From Paenibacillus sp. MMS20-IR301 (GTDB taxonomy: Bacteria > Bacillota > Bacilli > Paenibacillales > Paenibacillaceae), in contig NZ_CP135275.1 of assembly GCF_032302195.1 (NCBI RefSeq), positions 3,162,001-3,226,000 on the forward strand: a stretch of 64,000 nt of DNA, written 5' to 3'. Shown piece after piece: positions 15,101-55,558 of this stretch; the stretch's first letter is position 1; every line of letters begins with the position of its first letter. The translations under genes and the position numbers were made by a program. The notes below the pieces were generated by a model. That model had not been told where the DNA came from. It saw only the letters and a list, made by a program, of their open reading frames with translations, and did not search any database.

Positions 15101-15544
15101 TAAATATCCTCCTTTTAGGTATAGCAAACAGCACTTAACAAGATTAATAAGCGCTTTCATAAAATAATGTTCCGCTCGTTTCCGCCTCCTCACTTCCCCC
15201 TTCACCGTCTCAGGTTAGTATAGACGAATGTAATGGCCGCCCATAATTAGGCAAAACAACGAAAACATATACTAATTCAATTTTTTTGATATTTTGTAGC
15301 TGTTGATTGTGCTATTCAGCACTGTTTATTTTCAGGCGAACTTAGTTGTACAGAGTGCAGCTATCCGATCGAGCAACTTCTTTTCTTTCCATATAATTGC
15401 ACATAATACAACTATCCCTGAGTTTCCTCTAGGAACTGAAGATGTATATTGCTTCATCCTTGAATGAGTTCACTTCCGTGATAATAAGCGGACTCAGGTA
15501 TTTTACGGGACCCAAAATCTTATTAATTATATCCAGACAGCAAA
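15101..15544. other. Intergenic region between the galactanase and tRNA-Lys
   Basis: No coding frame is supported. It should hold the galactanase promoter near its left end. Its only notable structure is the inverted repeat at 15343-15414, listed separately. Confidence 0.55.
15343..15414. repeat. Inverted repeat with two matched arms
   Basis: TAGTTGTA plus GTGC on the left (15343-15350 and 15355-15358, four bases apart) is mirrored by GCAC plus TACAACTA on the right (15399-15402 and 15407-15414, again four bases apart), with a 40-base centre. The identical spacing of both sub-arms suggests a selected or mobile palindrome, not chance. No gene overlaps it. Confidence 0.55.
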
Positions 15545-15566
15545 AAAACGGCATCTCTGCCGTTTT
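15545..15566 (-). terminator. Terminator of tRNA-Lys (copy A)
   Basis: The stem AAAACGGCA / TGCCGTTTT with loop TCTC is followed on the minus strand by a T run. Nearly the same terminator follows the other two tRNA-Lys genes in this window. Confidence 0.9.
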
Positions 15567-15574
15567 CTTTAGGA

Positions 15575-15647
15575 TGGACTCTCAGGGACTCGAACCCTGG
15601 ACAAATTGATTAAGAGTCAACTGCTCTACCAACTGAGCTAAGAGTCC
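15575..15647 (-). tRNA. tRNA-Lys (anticodon CUU), copy A
   Basis: The 73-base gene folds as a full cloverleaf on the minus strand: acceptor GGACTCT/AGAGTCC, D arm with AGCTCAGTTGGTAGAGC, anticodon loop CTCTTAA (anticodon CTT, reading AAG), T arm with GGGTTCGAGTCCC, discriminator A. The terminal CCA is not encoded. It is identical to the copies at 49604 and 55404. Confidence 0.95.
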
Positions 15648-15841
15648 AGATGGTGTCTATGTATGCAATTATACTAGACGAGAATCTCTAAGCTGTGAAC
15701 TTCCGCTCAAAAGATACTTTCATAGTATACTTTTTAAATCCGCCTCTGTCAACCTTTTCTTTAAAATTAATATATCAGCAGCAGACCGCCGCAGCACAAA
15801 GCAGGAACAGCCCTGCACCGCAGCAGATTCCGCAAGCTTGG

Positions 15842-30424: not shown

Positions 30425-31714
30425 ATGACGCTCAATCTGATTAAGGGACAAAAATGCAGCTTGACGAAAGACAACCCTCTTCTTTCCCGCATTATCGTAG
30501 GGATGGGCTGGCAGAACGCCGGAGCCGGCGTTGAGGTGGATTTTTCCGTTTTTATGCTTACACCTGCGCAGACCGTCACCAAAGATGAGGACCTGATTTT
30601 TTACGGCAATCCTTCTAATCCGAATAAGTCCGTGGCTGTACAGCAATCCGGCACCCGAACCTACGCTGGACTAACTGACAATACACAGATCGCTGTTGAG
30701 CTTAGACAGGTCCCTGCAGAATATGAACGGATGGCCTTTGCGTTAACAATATATGATTGGGAAAAAAGACAGCAAACCTTCTCGTTATTAGACGGTGTGT
30801 ATCTGCGGATTATCAATGATGCTGACGGGACAGAACTCCTCCGGTACCCGCTGGGCAGCATGTTCACTGTAGAAACAGCTATTGTTGCCGGAGAAATCTA
30901 CAGATACAACAATGAATGGAAATTCAGCGCTGTAGGCTCAGGATATGCCGGAGGCTTAGCTGCCTTGTGCCGGAGTTACGGGATTGAGGTTATTCATTCA
31001 CAGCCGCCTGCTCCACCCGCCGGTACAGTAGATCCATTGCAGCAGCCGCCGCTGATCCTGCCTGAGCTGCGCTCACGGCCTAGACCGGCGGACAATTTGC
31101 CGCCCGCTCCCCCGCCATCAAGCCCGGGTTCCATCCTGCTTAAGAAGCGCGGGGAGAAGATCAGTCTCCAGAAAGGGGCTGCGGCCCTGAGTGAGATCCT
31201 GATCAATTTGAACTGGCATCAGAACAAATCATCCGGCTGGTTCGGGAGCAAAGGCGTCGATCTTGATCTGGGTTGCCTGTTCGAGTTGAAAAATGGCATC
31301 AAAGGCTCTGTCCAGGCACTTGGCGAGTCCTTCGGAAGCTTAAGCAGACCGCCGTATATCTCCCTTGACGGAGATGACCGGACCGGTACCATAGCCACTG
31401 GTGAGAATCTGCGGATTAACGGCCGCTATCTTAGTGAAATCAGCAGGATTGTCATCTTCGCCTTCATTTATGAGGGAATCACGAACTGGTCGCAGGCTGA
31501 CGCTGTTGTGACCATCCGGCAGCAGAGCGGACCGGAGATTGAAGTCCGGCTGGATGAGCATAACAATCACAAGGGAATGTGCGCAATCGCTATGATCCAT
31601 AATCAGAATGATGAGACCTTCAGCGTGGAGCGGCTCGTAGAATATTTCGCCGGCCATGAGGAATTGGATCAGCATTATCACTGGGGGCTGCGGTGGGAGG
31701 CCGGGAGTAAGTAG
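30425..31714 (+). CDS. Tandem TerD-domain (tellurium-resistance/stress) protein
   Basis: A 429-residue protein with two TerD-like domains joined by a proline-rich linker (about 190-250). The first starts MTLNLIKGQKCSLTK and contains GMGWQNAGAGVEVDFSVFML; the second contains ILINLNWHQNKSSGWFGSKG and VDLDLGCLFELKNG, both with the acidic pattern that binds calcium in TerD proteins. The ATG at 30425 is chosen because it begins the domain and has AAAGG upstream. TerD/TerA proteins occur in ter operons linked to tellurite, phage and membrane stress. None of the usual partners (terB, terC, terE) is in this window; the only companion is the orphan gene upstream. Confidence 0.85.
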   Translation: MTLNLIKGQKCSLTKDNPLLSRIIVGMGWQNAGAGVEVDFSVFMLTPAQTVTKDEDLIFYGNPSNPNKSVAVQQSGTRTYAGLTDNTQIAVELRQVPAEYERMAFALTIYDWEKRQQTFSLLDGVYLRIINDADGTELLRYPLGSMFTVETAIVAGEIYRYNNEWKFSAVGSGYAGGLAALCRSYGIEVIHSQPPAPPAGTVDPLQQPPLILPELRSRPRPADNLPPAPPPSSPGSILLKKRGEKISLQKGAAALSEILINLNWHQNKSSGWFGSKGVDLDLGCLFELKNGIKGSVQALGESFGSLSRPPYISLDGDDRTGTIATGENLRINGRYLSEISRIVIFAFIYEGITNWSQADAVVTIRQQSGPEIEVRLDEHNNHKGMCAIAMIHNQNDETFSVERLVEYFAGHEELDQHYHWGLRWEAGSK

Positions 31715-31751
31715 GTGGCTGGTTGTGGCTGGTTGTGGCTGCTTTAACAAT

Positions 31752-31790
31752 ACTATCTATCCGGGCTGGATCCGCAGATTTTGCGTTAAG
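31752..31790 (+). repeat. Short direct repeat, left copy
   Basis: This stretch shares TATCTATCCGG, GATCCG and TTGCGTTAAG in the same order with 33580-33617, with one gap and a few mismatches. The two copies flank the IS3 element and repeat copy 1. Confidence 0.5.
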
Positions 31791-31943
31791 CGAAATGCCG
31801 GCCGAATCGTTACGGACTAACCGCTAGTTAGTTTGAGTAAAATCACATAGTGACCCTCAGGAGGGGGCTCCTTGGGATTAGAATGGAAAGTGGACGACTG
31901 TTAACGGACGGAGGGATAATAAGAGCAACGGAGGTGCGTCCCT

Positions 31944-32261
31944 ATGGGAGAAAAACGACAACGGTACAACGAAGAATATAAGAAGCAAACGGTGAAGTTC
32001 ATTCAAGAACAGACGAAGAGCTTAGGGGACATCGCGCAAGAGCTGGACATTCCGAAAAGTACGCTGCACCAGTGGATGGGGCAATACCGGGAGCTAAAGA
32101 ATGAACCGGTCGCAAGTATGGATCGGGTACGGGAACTCGAAGCCGAGCTCCAAGAGATGCGCCGTCAGCTTCAGGAGAAAGACACTCAACTTGCTGACAC
32201 GGAGGAAGAACTAGCGATCGTAAAAAAAGCAGTGCACATCTTCAGCAAACCAAGGAACTAA
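31944..32261 (+). CDS. IS3-family transposase OrfA
   Basis: A 105-residue protein with an N-terminal helix-turn-helix (QRYNEEYKKQTVKFIQE, LGDIAQELDIPKSTLHQWM) and a C-terminal leucine-zipper-like coiled coil (RVRELEAELQEMRRQLQEKD), the standard OrfA layout for DNA binding and dimerisation. GGAGG lies nine bases before the ATG. Near its end it contains a run of seven A followed by G (32222-32229), the usual site of programmed -1 frameshifting into OrfB. Confidence 0.92.
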   Translation: MGEKRQRYNEEYKKQTVKFIQEQTKSLGDIAQELDIPKSTLHQWMGQYRELKNEPVASMDRVRELEAELQEMRRQLQEKDTQLADTEEELAIVKKAVHIFSKPRN

Positions 32262-32272
32262 GATTCCAGTTC

Positions 32273-33136
32273 ATGAAGGACCATCGCTCCGAGTTTCGCT
32301 TGGAGAAGATGTGCAATACCCTACAGGTATCCAGGAGCGGATATTACAAGTGGCTCAATGCCAAAGCCAGTTTGCAGGCACTCCGCAAGGCAGCCGTTAT
32401 GGAGCGAATCCGGTACCATTTTGACGATCATAAAAAACGGTATGGAAGTCCGAAGATCACCCGCCTGCTGCATCAGGAAGGCTATACGGTCACGAAACGC
32501 ACAGTGAGTGTGTACATGCGAGAAATGAAGCTCCGCTCTATTGTATCTAAGCCATACCGTGTGCAGACGACCGATTCCAAGCATAGCAATCCCGTTGCAC
32601 CAAACACACTGAACCAAGAGTTTAAGGTGCTTAAGCCCAATACCGTATGGGTCACGGACATCACGTATATCCCTTGTCGTGGAGGTCGCTTATACCTAGC
32701 TAGCGTCATGGATCTATGCACGCGAGAAATCGTAGGGTGGCGGCTGTATAACCATATGGAGACGAGCCTGGTCTTAGACGCACTGCAGGCGGCTTACACG
32801 GCGAAGCGGCCCGGCGAGGGCCTACTGCATCACTCTGACCGAGGGTCTCAATATACCTCAAAAGAATATGTCGACCAACTAAAGACATACCACATGAAAT
32901 CCAGCATGAGCCGTAAAGGAAACTGCTACGATAACGCCTGCATTGAGTCTTGGCACAGTATTTTAAAGAAAGAGCTCATCTACTGTAATCCGCGCTTCAA
33001 AAACCCGGAACAGGCATATGATGCTATTTTCCAATACATTGAGTTCTATTACAATCGCAAGCGAATGCACAGCTCGCTGGGGTATCTTTCCCCCGCCCGC
33101 TTTGCTAAGCAATTCACTAAAAAATCCGTTGCGTGA
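32273..33136 (+). CDS. IS3-family transposase OrfB (DDE integrase domain)
   Basis: A 287-residue frame holding the rve/DDE catalytic core: first Asp in WVTDITYI, second in HHSDRGSQYTS, and the Glu in CIESWHSILKKE. An N-terminal HTH_21 region (KKRYGSPKITRLLHQEG) precedes it, and the C-terminus ends YYNRKRMHSSLGYLSPARF as in IS150-type elements. The frame is open upstream of this ATG back to the A7G site in OrfA, so the active product is probably an OrfAB fusion made by -1 frameshifting. The gene looks intact. Confidence 0.93.
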   Translation: MKDHRSEFRLEKMCNTLQVSRSGYYKWLNAKASLQALRKAAVMERIRYHFDDHKKRYGSPKITRLLHQEGYTVTKRTVSVYMREMKLRSIVSKPYRVQTTDSKHSNPVAPNTLNQEFKVLKPNTVWVTDITYIPCRGGRLYLASVMDLCTREIVGWRLYNHMETSLVLDALQAAYTAKRPGEGLLHHSDRGSQYTSKEYVDQLKTYHMKSSMSRKGNCYDNACIESWHSILKKELIYCNPRFKNPEQAYDAIFQYIEFYYNRKRMHSSLGYLSPARFAKQFTKKSVA

Positions 33137-33174
33137 CAGTCTACTTTCTTGACAGAAGTCCACCTTGTGCATGG

Positions 33175-33358
33175 TTACGGACACAGGAGACCTTATCCCC
33201 GCCAAAAGCGCTCATCTGTCTGCCTTACGGACACAGGCGCCTTTATTCAGCTGATCTCACGGTGAAATCGGCTTGGCGAGGGGAAATAAGGGCTGTCAGG
33301 TCCGCAAGCCCTGCCTAATGTGCTGTAAAGGCAAAATAAAGGCTGTGGTGTCCGTTGC
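33175..33358. repeat. Dispersed nested-palindrome repeat, copy 1
   Basis: A 184-bp unit built from four related modules: two forward (TTACGGACACAGG...CTTAT and TTACGGACACAGG...CTTTATT) and two inverted (AAATAAGGGCTGTCAGGTCCG and AAATAAAGGCTG...TGTCCG). The whole forms a long imperfect stem. Copies 2, 3 and 4 are at 36158, 47573 and 49113. It is complete here and serves as the reference for the copy interrupted by the IS110 element. Confidence 0.85.
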
Positions 33359-33579
33359 GGCATGCTGATTACGCTTGAAAATGTACACATCAACTTCTGC
33401 AGGCTCATAGCAGTATGGTATCTTTTCCTGCCGCTGCTTCTGCTGCTTTAACTGTAATCGTACAAGTAGTTCATCCACGCACTCTATTTTTCAGACATTC
33501 ACCAACTACTTATTGAATCCTGTAATGTCTGCGCTATAATAAGAAGCATAGGTTGTGAAGCACACACCGCTTTTAATGC

Positions 33580-33617
33580 ATTATCTATCCGGTTAGATCC
33601 GGGGATATTGCGTTAAG
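33580..33617 (+). repeat. Short direct repeat, right copy
   Basis: It matches 31752-31790 as described there. Here it is embedded in a larger fold: GCACACA and CCGC to its left (from about 33560) pair with GCGG and TGTGTGC to its right (to about 33637), and ATCC pairs with GGAT inside. It lies 40-100 bp upstream of the nuclease-fold gene and could be a structured leader. Confidence 0.5.
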
Positions 33618-33675
33618 GCGGCTTTTTTGTGTGCAGAAGCAATTTTCGCGTGAATACTGAAGGAGGAGCACAAAC

Positions 33676-34326
33676 ATGTCAAGATTTGAACAACAGTATG
33701 ATGAATGGCTAGCCATCAATACGGAGAATGAAAGTAACCATAGACGAAAAGAGCTGCTGGGTAAAGGCCTTGGCCACGGAACAGTAGAGTTCCTCCGCAC
33801 GGTTTGGTTTCCGGCCATCGGCAATCTGGACCATCTGTACCCGGAATGGGAAGTGCGGGATTTCAGCAACGGATACCGTTATCTGGATCTGGCCTATATG
33901 CCAGGAGGCGTGAAAGGCGGGATTGAGATTCAGGGCTATGGACCACATGCCAGGGATCTCGACGTCCGAAGATTCAAGGATCTGTGCCGCAGGCATTGTC
34001 TGCTTGCCTTGGACGGCTGGACTTTTCTGCCAATAGCGTATCCTTCCATTGTAGAGGAGCCTAAGCAATGCCAGCAGCTGGTGTTGTCTTTTATCGGCAA
34101 GTTCATGGCAACAGATATTGTCTCCACGTTACCTTGTCTGGAGGCAGAATCCCTGCGTTTCGCTAGACGTCTGCTCAGAGCATTCACCCCCTCAGAACTT
34201 GCGCATCATCTTAAAATTACCGATCGGCACGCCAGACGCATTCTGAATGAGCTGGTGCAGCTGCAGCTACTGGATGTCGCCAGCGGCGGGCAGCAGCGCA
34301 ATCGGACGTATCAGCTCAGAGTGTAA
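33676..34326 (+). CDS. Probable PD-(D/E)XK nuclease-fold protein with C-terminal winged helix
   Basis: A 216-residue protein. The central segment YRYLDLAYMPGGVKGGIEIQ (about 69-88) provides an aspartate and an E-x-Q pair, and DVRRFKDLCRRHCLLALDGW follows; this order is that of DUF559/Vsr-like PD-(D/E)XK folds in which Q replaces the lysine. The last 60 residues (FTPSELAHHLKITDRHARRILNELVQLQLLD) form a winged-helix/HTH domain. GGAGGAG precedes the ATG. The domain call comes from motif spacing, not a search. It sits between an IS3 and an IS110 element and next to dispersed repeats. Confidence 0.65.
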   Translation: MSRFEQQYDEWLAINTENESNHRRKELLGKGLGHGTVEFLRTVWFPAIGNLDHLYPEWEVRDFSNGYRYLDLAYMPGGVKGGIEIQGYGPHARDLDVRRFKDLCRRHCLLALDGWTFLPIAYPSIVEEPKQCQQLVLSFIGKFMATDIVSTLPCLEAESLRFARRLLRAFTPSELAHHLKITDRHARRILNELVQLQLLDVASGGQQRNRTYQLRV

Positions 34327-34442
34327 CTAAGTAACAATGGCAGACTGCCGGCTAGAGCAAATGTTAGTTGAAACGGCAATTCGAACACAACCAGTTGGCA
34401 GTTTGGGATGCTGGTACAAATGCTTACGGACACAGGAGACCT

Positions 34443-34881
34443 TGATATGAACGAAACAGTCAAGCGCCGCAGTAGCAATCCCGTTTTTGGCGCACTTAAA
34501 CAAACCTATCAATTGACGTCTTTTAGAGGAGGTTCCCTTTTTCCCAAAGGGTTGACGCAGTGTTTAACCTTTCTTCTCAACACATAGGGAGGAGCATGTT
34601 CTTAACTTGGAGGCAAAAATCATTCGCTGGTTGGCATCCTGATATTCGTGGGTTTACACATGGTATCTATCCATCTGAAGAGCCTGCCGCTAACTATTTT
34701 CGTCCGTCGTTTGCAAGCAAACGGGCACAAAGGTCTTCCGCGGCGTTTCTCTTCACCTTGCTCGATTTTGCCTCCAAGGTAAGTCATGCTCTAGCTTCCC
34801 GGTTTTCACTTCCTTTCTTTTAGGGTGGGACTTTTTTTCAGTAACGTAACGTGTGGCCTTGTCGTCCATGTACGGCAAGGG
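34443..34881 (-). ncRNA. Candidate IS1111-type guide (bridge/seek) RNA region
   Basis: About 440 bases between the transposase stop and the element end carry no credible gene, far more than the 124 bases on the other side. IS1111-group elements are known to encode their target-choosing RNA in this downstream position. On the transposase-sense strand, GGAAGACCTT (near 34738-34729) resembles the left flank GGAGACCTT with one extra base, a stem GTTTGC-TT-GCAAAC follows, and then AATAGTTA, which is complementary to TAACTATT across the right junction. These are short matches found by eye; the RNA ends and fold are not established. Confidence 0.4.
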
Positions 34882-36033
34882 TTATCCGGCAATTAGAGAA
34901 TCCGTGGCTGGGTTTCGGTCGCCCTTCTCCAGAACTCTGGCAATAGCCCATACAAAGCCGGCAAGCTCCCGGGCAATGGCGGCTACGATTTTCGATTTGT
35001 GCTTCCCTTTTCCCAGCATCGTCATGTATTTGCGATGAAGTCGATTTTGTGCCTCAAAGGCCATTCGCTGCACCTCCGGCGGCAGTCCGCTGATTCGCTC
35101 CCGCAATTTGCGCCGTACGCCCGGTGAGTGCCGGTAATGGTGGGCCGCTTCGACCAGCACCCGCCGCAAATGTGCATTGCCTGCCTTGGTCAGCTTTCCC
35201 TGACTACGGCTCACACCGCTGGAGTGTTCACTGGGTACTAACCCACAGTAGCTCATGAACGAGGGGGCGCTGGCAAACCGCGTCACACTGACCATCTCCG
35301 ACACCAGTGTGGTAGCGGTGAGTGTGGCCACTCCTCGCAGCGCCTGAAGGGCTTCAATAAGTGGCGCCTGCACATGGGTGTGAGAGAGACGCTCGATCTC
35401 TTTTTCGTAACGCCGAAGTCGTTCTGCCGTTTCTCGAATGCTCTCCCGGTATTCCTGGAAGACTATGCGGTGGCAGGAACTCTCGAAGCGGAGGGTATCC
35501 AGCCACTCTTCAAAGGCGAAGGTCCAGGCCTTGACCTTGCTTGGAGGGAAGAGCTGCAAACGCAGCAGGAACTTGCCCATGCGCTGCTTGTGGCGGTTCA
35601 TATCTTCTTTGGCGTCCTCGCGGGCTCGAACGAGATCCCGGAGCGCTTCCTCCTCAGGAGAGGGGATGTAGATCCCCGTTAGTTCGCCAGCCCGAAAGAG
35701 TTGAGCCAAGCGAAGCGCATCCCGCTTGTCGGTTTTAATCCGGTCCCCAGCGCGCTGAGGGATAAGAGAAGGAGCAACAACGGTACAGGCAATGCCGGCT
35801 TCGAGGAGCCAACGGTGAAGCATGTACCCGGTGGGCCCGGCTTCGTAGCAGACTTCCAGTTCCACTCGGGATTCACCGGAACCTTGCAGTTGATGTAGAA
35901 GCTTTAGTATGCGTTCCTTGGTATGTTCAATAATCCCCCAAAAGCGGGGTTCGCCACGGCCCTCATCTGCGATGGCTACAGCAATTTTGGCTTTGGATAC
36001 GTCTAATCCAATATACTTTTTGGCGATACTCAT
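34882..36033 (-). CDS. IS110-family transposase (DEDD)
   Basis: A 383-residue recombinase. The N-terminal RuvC-like DEDD domain opens KKYIGLDVSKAKIAVAIADE and contains VCYEAGPTGYMLHRWL and DKRDALRLAQLFRAGEL; the C-terminal Transposase_20 domain has LRGVATLTATTLVSEMVSV and MSYCGLVPSEHSSGVSRSQGK (quoted in part), whose serine is the candidate nucleophile. The ATG at 36033 is chosen because it starts the conserved domain and has AAGGAG upstream; an upstream frame extension of 18 codons lacks a site. No frameshift or stop interrupts it, so the element may be active. Confidence 0.93.
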   Translation of the reverse strand: MSIAKKYIGLDVSKAKIAVAIADEGRGEPRFWGIIEHTKERILKLLHQLQGSGESRVELEVCYEAGPTGYMLHRWLLEAGIACTVVAPSLIPQRAGDRIKTDKRDALRLAQLFRAGELTGIYIPSPEEEALRDLVRAREDAKEDMNRHKQRMGKFLLRLQLFPPSKVKAWTFAFEEWLDTLRFESSCHRIVFQEYRESIRETAERLRRYEKEIERLSHTHVQAPLIEALQALRGVATLTATTLVSEMVSVTRFASAPSFMSYCGLVPSEHSSGVSRSQGKLTKAGNAHLRRVLVEAAHHYRHSPGVRRKLRERISGLPPEVQRMAFEAQNRLHRKYMTMLGKGKHKSKIVAAIARELAGFVWAIARVLEKGDRNPATDSLIAG

Positions 36034-36157
36034 TAGTAAACCGACTCCTTTTTGTTTGTTAGCTCTGAATTGGGATCTTTGAGCCATTCACTCTTAGGAT
36101 TTCCAATTTAACCTACGAGATAAACAAATTGCGATGTCGGTTTCGTTCATGATAACT

Positions 36158-36321
36158 ATTCCTGCCAAAAGCTCCCCTCTGCCTGCTTTACGGACACAGG
36201 AGCCTTTATTCAGCTCATTTCACCGTGAAACCGGCTTGGCGAGGGGAAATAAGGGCTGTCAGGTCCGCAAGCCCAGCCAAATGCGCCAAAAAGACAAAAT
36301 AAAGGCTGTGGTGTCCGTTGC
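36158..36321. repeat. Dispersed nested-palindrome repeat, copy 2 (interrupted by IS110)
   Basis: This is the larger part of the second copy; its first module (TTACGGACACAGGAGACCT, 34424-34442) lies on the other side of the IS110 element. The rest follows copy 1 closely, including GGCTTGGCGAGGGGAAATAA and AAATAAAGGCTGTGGTGTCC. Confidence 0.85.
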
Positions 36322-36382
36322 GTTCAGCCGCACAGATTCATAGAGTCAAAGTTCGTAGTTAGTTAGCAACTCTGGTGGCGCT

Positions 36383-36480
36383 GCGGTCAGATACGGAAGC
36401 TCATGGAGCCAAGGGTTAGTTTGGGGCCTGATGTGCGTAGCAGTCAGATACGGAGGCTGATGGAGCCAAGAGTTTGTTGT
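36383..36480 (+). repeat. Two tandem 57-bp units
   Basis: GCGGTCAGATACGGAAGCTC at 36383 recurs as GCAGTCAGATACGGAGGCTG at 36440, each followed by ATGGAGCCAAG. The second unit diverges toward its end. No coding frame or known element explains it. Confidence 0.6.
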
Positions 36481-36550
36481 AAAGGGCTGCTTTGGAGTTC
36501 TGGTGCGAAGTCGGGATAGGGCCCCCCACAGACAGTACTACGCGCAAACA

Positions 36551-36588
36551 AAAAATCGCCCCCGGACATTTCTGCCCGGGAGCGTTTT
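36551..36588 (-). terminator. Rho-independent terminator of the beta-glucoside operon
   Basis: On the minus strand CGCTCCCGGG / CCGGGGGCG forms a stem followed by ATTTTTTG. It lies 26 bp beyond the stop codon of the 6-phospho-beta-glucosidase gene. Confidence 0.88.
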
Positions 36589-36613
36589 GGTACAGCTTCC
36601 CCTGCCTGCCAAT

Positions 36614-38098
<1,485 letters not shown>

Positions 38099-47572: not shown

Positions 47573-47754
47573 TTACGGACCTGAGAGCCTTTATTTCTAC
47601 CAAAATCCCTGTTTCGCCTGCCTTACGGACACAGATGCACTTATTTGCGGGTACTGGAGTGAAATGTTGCCGGATTGAAGGAAATAAGAGCTGTAGTGTC
47701 CGTATGGCCTGGAAAATGAGCAGATTTGAGTAAATAAAGGCTCTGGTGTCCGCA
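47573..47754. repeat. Dispersed nested-palindrome repeat, copy 3
   Basis: Outer arms CGGACCTGAGAGCCTTTATTT and its near-complement AAATAAAGGCTCTGGTGTCCG enclose inner arms TTACGGACACAG and AAATAAGAGCTGTAGTGTCC. It is almost identical to copy 4 (49113), and more distant from copies 1 and 2. It lies right after the DoxX stop and could also act as its terminator. Confidence 0.85.
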
Positions 47755-49112: not shown

Positions 49113-49293
49113 TACGGACCTGAGAGCCTTTATTTCCGCCAAAATCGCTGTTTCGCCTGCATTACGGACACAGATGCACTTATTTGCGGGTACTGGAGTG
49201 AAATGTTGCCTGTTTGAAGGAAATAAGAGCTGTAGTGTCCGTATGGCCGGGAAAATGGGCAGATTTGAGTAAATAAAGGCTCAGGTGTCCGCA
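49113..49293. repeat. Dispersed nested-palindrome repeat, copy 4
   Basis: Same modules and orientation as copy 3 (47573) with only scattered differences. Copies 3 and 4 bracket the TetR-DoxX unit as direct repeats about 1.5 kb apart. Confidence 0.85.
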
Positions 49294-49564
49294 AGAGTCA
49301 GGCACAGGTAGTCAGGGGCTAAACGTGGCGTGAGGAGCAGCGTGTGGGTAAGGTTTGCGGGGCGCGATACCTACAGATATACAGCACACAGGCTGGGGCC
49401 AGGCGGGATACAGTTACGACGCGAGATAAAGTAAGGATGCGGTTCAACTCGGGAGTTCCTGGCGCGGGAGGCGCGGTGCACAGTACATGCTGCCGGCTAA
49501 CAGTAGACCAACGCACACACCCAGCACAAGCGGGAAAACTCGCGGACTGAGATCAGTATATCCG
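49294..49564. other. Intergenic region left of the tRNA island
   Basis: GC-richer than its surroundings and without a supported gene; short frames on both strands lack ribosome binding sites. Confidence 0.5.
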
Positions 49565-49574
49565 AACAGCAAAA

Positions 49575-49594
49575 AAACGGCATCGCTGCCGTTT
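49575..49594 (-). terminator. Terminator of tRNA-Lys (copy B)
   Basis: The stem AAACGGCA / TGCCGTTT with loop TCGC is followed on the minus strand by a T run; identical to the one at 55375. Confidence 0.88.
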
Positions 49595-49603
49595 CTTCTA
49601 GGA

Positions 49604-49676
49604 TGGACTCTCAGGGACTCGAACCCTGGACAAATTGATTAAGAGTCAACTGCTCTACCAACTGAGCTAAGAGTCC
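49604..49676 (-). tRNA. tRNA-Lys (anticodon CUU), copy B
   Basis: Identical over all 73 bases to the copies at 15575 and 55404, with a full cloverleaf and anticodon CTT. CCA is not encoded. It is intact, so it may be expressed if a promoter exists, but the tRNA-Ala that would lead the transcript is truncated here. Confidence 0.93.
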
Positions 49677-49682
49677 ATGGTA

Positions 49683-49738
49683 TGGTGGAGAATAGGGGGC
49701 TCGAACCCCTGACCTCATCGCTGCCAGCGATGCGCTCT
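49683..49738 (-). pseudogene. Truncated tRNA-Ala (GGC) fragment
   Basis: The 3' part of the tRNA-Ala (anticodon arm, T arm, acceptor 3' strand and CCA) is identical to the intact gene at 55483. The first 20 bases, forming the acceptor 5' strand and most of the D arm, are missing and replaced by island sequence, so it cannot fold as a tRNA. Confidence 0.9.
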
Positions 49739-55284: not shown

Positions 55285-55374
55285 ATACGCCAAACTGAGT
55301 TTTATGTGTAGACGAATACAAAATATATAATTACCGTCTACAATAATTTTATACATTATAATGAAACAGCAAAA

Positions 55375-55394
55375 AAACGGCATCGCTGCCGTTT
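55375..55394 (-). terminator. Terminator of the tRNA-Ala/tRNA-Lys transcript
   Basis: The stem AAACGGCA / TGCCGTTT with loop TCGC followed on the minus strand by a T run. Confidence 0.88.
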
Positions 55395-55403
55395 CTTCTG
55401 TGA

Positions 55404-55476
55404 TGGACTCTCAGGGACTCGAACCCTGGACAAATTGATTAAGAGTCAACTGCTCTACCAACTGAGCTAAGAGTCC
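55404..55476 (-). tRNA. tRNA-Lys (anticodon CUU), copy C
   Basis: Identical to the two other copies; full cloverleaf with anticodon loop CTCTTAA and discriminator A, CCA not encoded. It follows tRNA-Ala by six bases on the same strand and shares its terminator. Confidence 0.95.
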
Positions 55477-55482
55477 ATGGTA

Positions 55483-55558
55483 TGGTGGAGAATAGGGGGC
55501 TCGAACCCCTGACCTCATCGCTGCCAGCGATGCGCTCTCCCAGCTGAGCTAATTCCCC
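55483..55558 (-). tRNA. tRNA-Ala (anticodon GGC)
   Basis: A 76-base gene on the minus strand including encoded CCA: acceptor GGGGAAT/ATTCTCC (one G-U pair), D arm with AGCTCAGCTGGGAGAGC, anticodon loop CTGGCAG (anticodon GGC, reading GCC), T arm GGGGTTCGAGCCCC. It is the intact version of the fragment at 49683. Confidence 0.96.

Follow-up and report, generated by a model that had tools for sequence, protein, structure and literature searches.

REP and REPIN sequences, together with their RAYT genes, form hundreds of dispersed palindromic repeats, and the gene is linked to a repeat copy. Repeats of this type are targets of insertion sequences. ISPa11, an IS1111-group element of Pseudomonas aeruginosa, lies at one point of the REP in six of six copies and has no direct repeats (PMC1525189). 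In the IS1111 group a seekRNA is located downstream of tnp, and its top-strand match lies 5′ of its bottom-strand match; the related elements ISEc11 and ISXne4 have exchanged target-matching segments, a natural redirection (PMC11187229, accessible portion). The bridge RNA of IS621, an element of the IS110 group, combines target- and donor-matching segments in one RNA and targets REPs; the RNAs of the IS110 group are located in the left end, and their subterminal repeats are 2–3 bp long (PMC11208160, accessible portion).

The window analyzed here comprises 64 kb of the 7,692,718-bp chromosome of Paenibacillus sp. MMS20-IR301 (genome G000) and contains an IS110-family element inserted inside a palindromic repeat (Table 1). 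Judged from its sequence, the element is almost certainly an IS1111-group insertion sequence that is guided by RNA and was active recently; its predicted guide RNA would target the dispersed repeat. The left flank, CGGACACAGGAGACCTT, extends to 34443 and the right flank, ATTCCTGCC, begins at 36158; the ends are ambiguous by one base owing to a shared T. The span 34424–36321 given in the preliminary description contains the element, but also takes in both flanks and the remaining repeat. The nearby copy proposed there as a reference (CGGACACAGGAGACCTTATC, 33178–33197) is uninterrupted and a good paralogue, but it is not letter-identical after CCTTAT.

Table 1 Features of the IS1111-group element and its surroundings (window coordinates).
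Feature	Position	Strand	Description
Uninterrupted array upstream of 216-aa gene	33178..33354	.	Boxes at 33178 +, 33228 +, 33285 -, 33335 -
Leader of 216-aa gene	33552..33629	+	Small hairpin (GTGAAGCACAC region) followed by a terminator-like stem with T run
216-aa gene	33676..34326	+	C-terminal winged helix; putative N-terminal DUF559/REase_MTES_1575-like (PD-(D/E)XK) domain, from paralogs
Box 1, left piece	34427..34443	+	CGGACACAGGAGACCTT
IS1111-group insertion sequence, 1714 bp	34444..36157	-	Same ends in 6 copies; ends aligned with relatives
Right-end subterminal inverted repeat	34447..34457	.	ATGAACGAAAC
Predicted seekRNA/bridge RNA region	34602..34785	-	Probable extent, from closing stem in sequence
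Donor guide	34639..34645	-	ATATCAG; equals RE end ATATC plus core AG
Left target guide	34694..34701	-	GAAAATAG; same sense as LE flank AATAG
Right target guide	34730..34736	-	AGACCTT; complementary to RE flank AAGGTCT
Transposase ORF, 401 aa	34882..36087	-	DEDD_Tnp_IS110 + Transposase_20; profile and PDB relatives
Left-end subterminal inverted repeat	36140..36150	.	GTTTCGTTCAT; LE is the high-coordinate side
Box 1, right piece	36158..36160	+	ATT
Box 2 of target array	36191..36210	+	
Box 3 of target array	36248..36267	-	Inverted
Box 4 of target array	36298..36317	-	Inverted

The earlier assignment to the IS110 family agrees with the transposase profiles and domains, as the ORF matches NF033542 (254.9 bits), PF01548 and PF02371, and its PDB relatives are the ISCro4 and IS621 transposases. 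The IS1111 subgroup had been missed. The C-terminal motif GL-P----S(T)G, a criterion of that group (PMC11187229, accessible portion), is present in the translation as GLVPSEHSSG. The subterminal inverted repeats form an 11-bp pair (ATGAACGAAAC), inside the IS1111 range of 7–17 bp (PMC11208160, accessible portion), and 438 nt of non-coding DNA lie downstream of the transposase gene versus 70 nt upstream. The subterminal repeats, the long downstream non-coding region and the motif thus place the element in the IS1111 group, where the DEDD and Transposase_20 domains and the predicted seekRNA order are likewise found. The transposase, which has 401 residues, or 383 if translation begins at the likely start at residue 19 (MSIAKKYIG), is longer than the 330–350 residues usual for the group (PMC11187229, accessible portion).

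The predicted guide RNA reads, 5′ to 3′ in RNA sense, stem CCGC, right guide AGACCTT, inner hairpin, left guide GAAAATAG followed by TTA, GCGG, and later ATATCAG, such that the closing stem CCGC/GCGG flanks both target guides. The top-strand match lies 5′ of the bottom-strand match and both fit the target, as in seekRNAs. When G-U wobbles are counted, 12 of 14 elements pair their closing stem by our reading, with some base exchanges among elements, including TCGC/GCGA and CCACG/CGTGG. Comparison of the predicted RNA fold with shuffled sequences resulted in a z score of −1.3, with 22 of 200 shuffles as good, which is not significant alone. An Rfam scan of 31700–36700 yielded nothing above the gathering score and one sub-threshold match (E 0.82).

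This arrangement suggests the following mechanism. The region downstream of the transposase gene would be expressed as a non-coding RNA carrying the guides. The right guide would pair with AAGGTCT on one target strand and the left guide with the other strand at AATAR, and both together would specify about ten bases, AGACCTT^ATT, where the transposase would cleave and insert the element, probably from a circular form and without target duplication. A third RNA segment matches the element's own right end and would serve as the donor guide. Since the target bases would come from a box of the palindromic repeat, the element is expected to land at the same repeat position each time. In the window, it has entered box 1 of a 4-box array behind a gene for a nuclease-like winged-helix protein.

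The guides match the flanks and change with them, which at the sequence level bears out the earlier proposal of an RNA guide. For 11 lineages every RNA was compared with every flank and scored by the longest match anchored at the core; the own-flank sum was 152, compared with a permuted mean of 95.6 (SD 7.9, maximum 139), and none of 100,000 permutations was as good as the observed pairing; the test treats lineages as independent, and some share ancestry and guides (G081/G069, G093/G071). The 11 representatives leave out P. silagei (no left end), G009, G070 and G079. The P. silagei element, which has a 95% identical transposase protein over residues 49–401, combines the right guide GGTGCTCTT with the RE flank AAGAGCACC, where the window element combines AGACCTT with AAGGTCT.

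The donor guide (ATATC, ATAAC or ATAGC) equals the element's own RE end in all 14 elements examined. The donor segment carries AG in 14 of 14, and the left junctions that could be read show AG; those letters are partly present by construction, because the search patterns demanded AG beside the left end, and CAG within the donor segment. Three elements (window, P. silagei, G045) have a right target guide ending in TT, and eleven have one ending in CT; exactly the same three show the core AA beside the right end, and the other eleven AG. This agreement between guide ending and right-end core indicates that the core at the right junction comes from the target, and the pattern may be read in terms of strand exchange. 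One additional copy, L125 of G059, has the core AT.

The own genome contains six copies of the element, all of which lie at GACCTT^ATT of the box CGGAC-N6-GACCTTATT and read GACCTT[IS]CTATT, with CGGAC beginning eleven bases 5′ of GACCTT. The fixed insertion point in a dispersed repeat and its recurrence at further repeat copies, both put forward in the preliminary description, are therefore observed in this genome, and a search for copies outside the repeat found none among the six. Strings resembling GACCCTATT were considered as the empty site and dropped, the array at 690 kb having shown GACCTTATT. In that region (C1:690221–693696, L128) two copies stand in tandem with a 1764-bp period, and the 50-bp spacer between them recurs after the second copy; the element plus one 50-bp box interval seems to have been duplicated.

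Two other explanations of the fixed site were weighed against guide-directed insertion. The transposase protein might recognise the folded palindrome itself, and no RNA guide reading about ten bases would then be needed. The choice of sites lends this some support: the boxes are arranged as inverted pairs, and every one of the six copies occupies a box, whereas of the 78 empty GACCTTATT sites in the genome 49 lie outside boxes and 29 inside (with one mismatch tolerated in CGGAC; three of the 29 seem accidental on visual inspection). Were every GACCTTATT equally usable, six of six in boxes would have a chance of ~0.005 by our own arithmetic, or ~0.01 with the tandem pair counted once. The guide-specified 10-mer AATAAGGTCT is not enriched (22 in the own genome versus 20 for the reversed control, and 3–24 in 13 other genomes); selection against insertions in genes may therefore account for part of the bias toward boxes over other matches. 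Recognition of the palindrome by protein is nonetheless very unlikely, because guides and flanks co-vary over the 11 lineages, the array RNA folds only mildly better than its shuffles (z −1.9), and the copies avoid a common box variant. The base preceding GACCTT is A in five copies and T in one but never G, whereas G occupies this position (the GGACC variant) in 14 of the 29 empty box sites; avoidance of the variant is as predicted by the guide, which reads A there. That the six copies are duplicates of one locus is still less probable. Four copies aligned base by base with the window copy differ from it at 0–1 bases, and the 690 kb pair forms a 1764-bp tandem unit whose 50-bp spacer is repeated, but outside the box the remaining flanks have different sequences. 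Five or more sites are consequently independent, and descent from a single locus is excluded except for the tandem pair. Guide-directed insertion, the preferred explanation, resembles that of ISPa11 at one point of a dispersed palindromic repeat; host, guide, repeat structure, associated gene and the longer transposase differ. With IS621 the element shares one predicted RNA region with target- and donor-matching segments and a repeat target, but in the window element the right target guide gives the core AA and the donor guide AG. In comparison with ISEc11 and ISXne4, the natural series is larger, lies within one genus, and varies in donor guide and core base too.

The repeat is dispersed and palindromic, as described earlier, but its four-box structure had been overlooked, as had the neighbouring 216-aa gene whose downstream side holds the array. 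Both arrays around the gene have the layout +,+,-,- with 50, 57 and 50 bp between box starts (first boxes by eye); 33194–33359 and 36157–36322 are 89% identical, and by eye the box at 33178 ends in ATC. The own genome contains 258 strict boxes, compared with 24 for the reversed pattern. Among the 41 distinct clusters examined, 27 hold at least two boxes (strict regex), 19 have the layout +,- and four the full +,+,-,-; 35 lie outside ORFs of at least 100 aa. Two more 4-box arrays occur in the window at 47576–47752 and 49115–49291, around which 232 nt are 87% identical, 1539 bp apart. An IS3-family element with two ORFs occupies 31944–33136, and its right end adjoins the upstream box array. Another, 185-nt repeat family has three copies (15525–15709, 49554–49738 and 55354–55538), with 72 and 96% identity to the reference copy.

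A DNA match to the gene at 33676–34326 was found in 50 of 100 genus genomes, the own genome included. The possibility, raised in the preliminary description, that the site had never been an intact repeat in relatives was examined at the 11 best-matching orthologous loci outside the own genome among these 50 genomes, and all 11 carry an uninterrupted repeat behind the gene. These loci give a clearer picture of the site before insertion than does the neighbouring copy at 33178. Only one of them, G093, which reads CGGACCGAGGAGACCTTATTATC, has exactly GACCTTATT at the site; the other ten carry variants of the insertion-site bases.

The putative nuclease domain of the 216-aa protein is suggested by paralogs about 30% identical to it, which match REase_MTES_1575 with E 8.9e-6 (below its cut-off) and DUF559 with E 7.7e-5 (above its cut-off). 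In the 216-aa protein itself no nuclease domain was found in Pfam up to E 10, and the VIA-align rows fall almost entirely in residues 146–216. A first structure model, built with 14 close sequences, was poor (pLDDT 62.7) and was kept out of the fold search; a second, with 59 sequences, reached a pLDDT of 82.4. Foldseek with the protein model returned no PDB match at E ≤ 0.001, and weak fold matches for the N-terminal domain were 3hrl and the R2 endonuclease. A lysine is usual at the residue after the E of the PD-(D/E)XK pair. Following the conserved E84 pair position, the window protein has Q86 and the paralogs mostly D instead, so that catalytic activity is uncertain. No Y1 HUH transposase profile matched the 216-aa protein in Pfam or NCBIfam, or six paralogs in Pfam.

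Leaders of the gene family contain a hairpin with the motif GAAG(A/C)AC and a covarying stem, followed by a terminator-like stem, and from these sequence features the leader looks like an attenuator. The alignment comprises 34 of 67 extracted leaders; the pattern is unmatched in 12 further members, some with visible variants, and the window copy has no Rfam match.

The array follows the gene at 28 of 30 close-ortholog loci, the other two being the IS-split window copy and a contig end. Beside 20 paralogs the CGGAC-type regex found no arrays, but reading these flanks revealed other box types, and the period was then measured without a motif. In the cleaned set a 50/51-bp repeat is present in 28 of 50 downstream paralog flanks, and a 57-bp period in 7 of 47 upstream flanks. 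Only 10 of 26 close-ortholog flanks reach the motif-free threshold, because their boxes vary in the middle. An earlier run (55 of 87 downstream, 8 of 87 upstream and 1 of 87 shuffled flanks over its threshold) included duplicates and a masked flank and was superseded by the cleaned set. The paralog box, leader and period sets leave out L306 and L318 (duplicates), L319 (fragment), L327 (masked), L239 (243 bp downstream) and L226 (read as 145 aa), and the cleaned period measure also drops L225 and near-identical flanks. With enrichment defined as a box count of at least twice the control, the CGGAC box is enriched in 51 of 82 genomes with the gene family and in none of 18 without it, kinship ignored. 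Six genomes with a close ortholog (G054, G018, G063, G045, G062, G099) have box counts near control, and may represent a system whose dispersed copies have been lost or have yet to expand.

The IS1111 elements of seven genomes aim at boxes found behind gene-family members. Sites of the AG/GGAANNNCTCCC type hold nine of ten copies in G081, two of two in G079, and one of two plus a shortened one in G069, and arrays of the GGAANNNCTCCC kind lie behind L321, L322 and L316 in G081, G079 and G069, the boxes of L316 varying more. In these three genomes AATTAGGGAA occurs 56, 53 and 22 times versus 5–8 in 11 others; its reversed control occurs 32, 41 and 29 times versus 12–26, so that G069 is not above its own control. 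Copies in G059 and G095 occupy AGTTGGA boxes of the kind that follows L302 and L311, where the guide target is matched with one mismatch. The G017 copies fit, likewise with one mismatch, the CGGAC-type array downstream of that genome's own ortholog, L244. The flank of the G009 element is similar, but a search behind the gene-family members of that genome found no such array. By eye, 25 of 28 insertion loci in eight genomes (G000, G017, G081, G069, G079, G059, G009, G095) lie in such boxes; L111 is two bases shorter, and L121 and L125 do not fit. Within these series it is the right guide that varies with the box; the left guide stays nearly constant, since the boxes end alike. In G009, G045, G050, G071, G072 and G093 the best target matches downstream of family members have at least two mismatches, the comparison in G050 covering one of seven members. 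Member-by-member box reading covered all but one of six members in G081 and three of eight in G059.

The repeat appears to belong to a gene-repeat partnership that works like REP-RAYT. About evenly balanced, in our judgment, is the broader proposal of a REP-like system unrelated to RAYT, in which a winged-helix, PD-(D/E)XK-type (DUF559/MTES_1575-like) nuclease family, whose paralogs have an attenuator-like leader and their own cis array (~20-bp boxes in 50–51-bp phase), reads its box and is responsible for dispersing or maintaining hundreds of copies, and IS1111 elements parasitise these boxes, one guide being rewritten to follow each change of the box. Here, the protein would drive the spread of the boxes. 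The array behind the gene may instead be a plain conserved terminator or operator, with the dispersed boxes independent of the protein, a possibility to which we give appreciable but less than even weight; autoregulation through the cis array is a live rival. Box counts fall below twice the control in 11 of 47 close-ortholog genomes and 20 of 35 with distant members only, a comparison made without phylogenetic correction; no box mobilisation was observed, and Q86 stands where lysine is usual. Against independence of boxes and protein, paralogs differ in box type as judged by eye, all 18 genomes lacking the gene family have CGGAC box counts of less than twice the control, and AATTAGGGAA is more frequent where the paralog carries such boxes, the reversed control also being higher there.

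The gene-repeat partnership resembles REPIN-RAYT in its hundreds of dispersed palindromic repeats and in the linkage of a gene to one of the repeat copies, seen at 28 of 30 close-ortholog loci. However, the protein is a winged-helix protein, DUF559/REase-like by its paralogs, with no Y1 HUH profile match, and the boxes lie 50–51 bp apart in 4-box arrays and are accompanied by an attenuator-like leader. Being a protein of another kind, it sets the partnership apart from the REPIN-RAYT systems. We did not find a published description of the pairing, as far as listings and abstract openings show, and the accessible portion of PMC3733652 makes no mention of Paenibacillus.

Because its guides change with the flanking DNA over 11 lineages, the element is an IS1111 member comparable to ISPa11 in the REPs of Pseudomonas. 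Guide targeting of a dispersed repeat by the IS1111 group is known from ISPa11; the linkage of the repeat to a gene is less expected. The element is part of a natural guide-target series within one genus, useful for deriving the guide rules of the IS1111 group, and the series includes elements whose target-guide core (AA) and donor-guide core (AG) differ. If the gene family governs its boxes, it would constitute a second, independent protein-repeat partnership in bacteria besides RAYT, the specificity of which would be directly testable by exchange of boxes between the box-specific paralogs.
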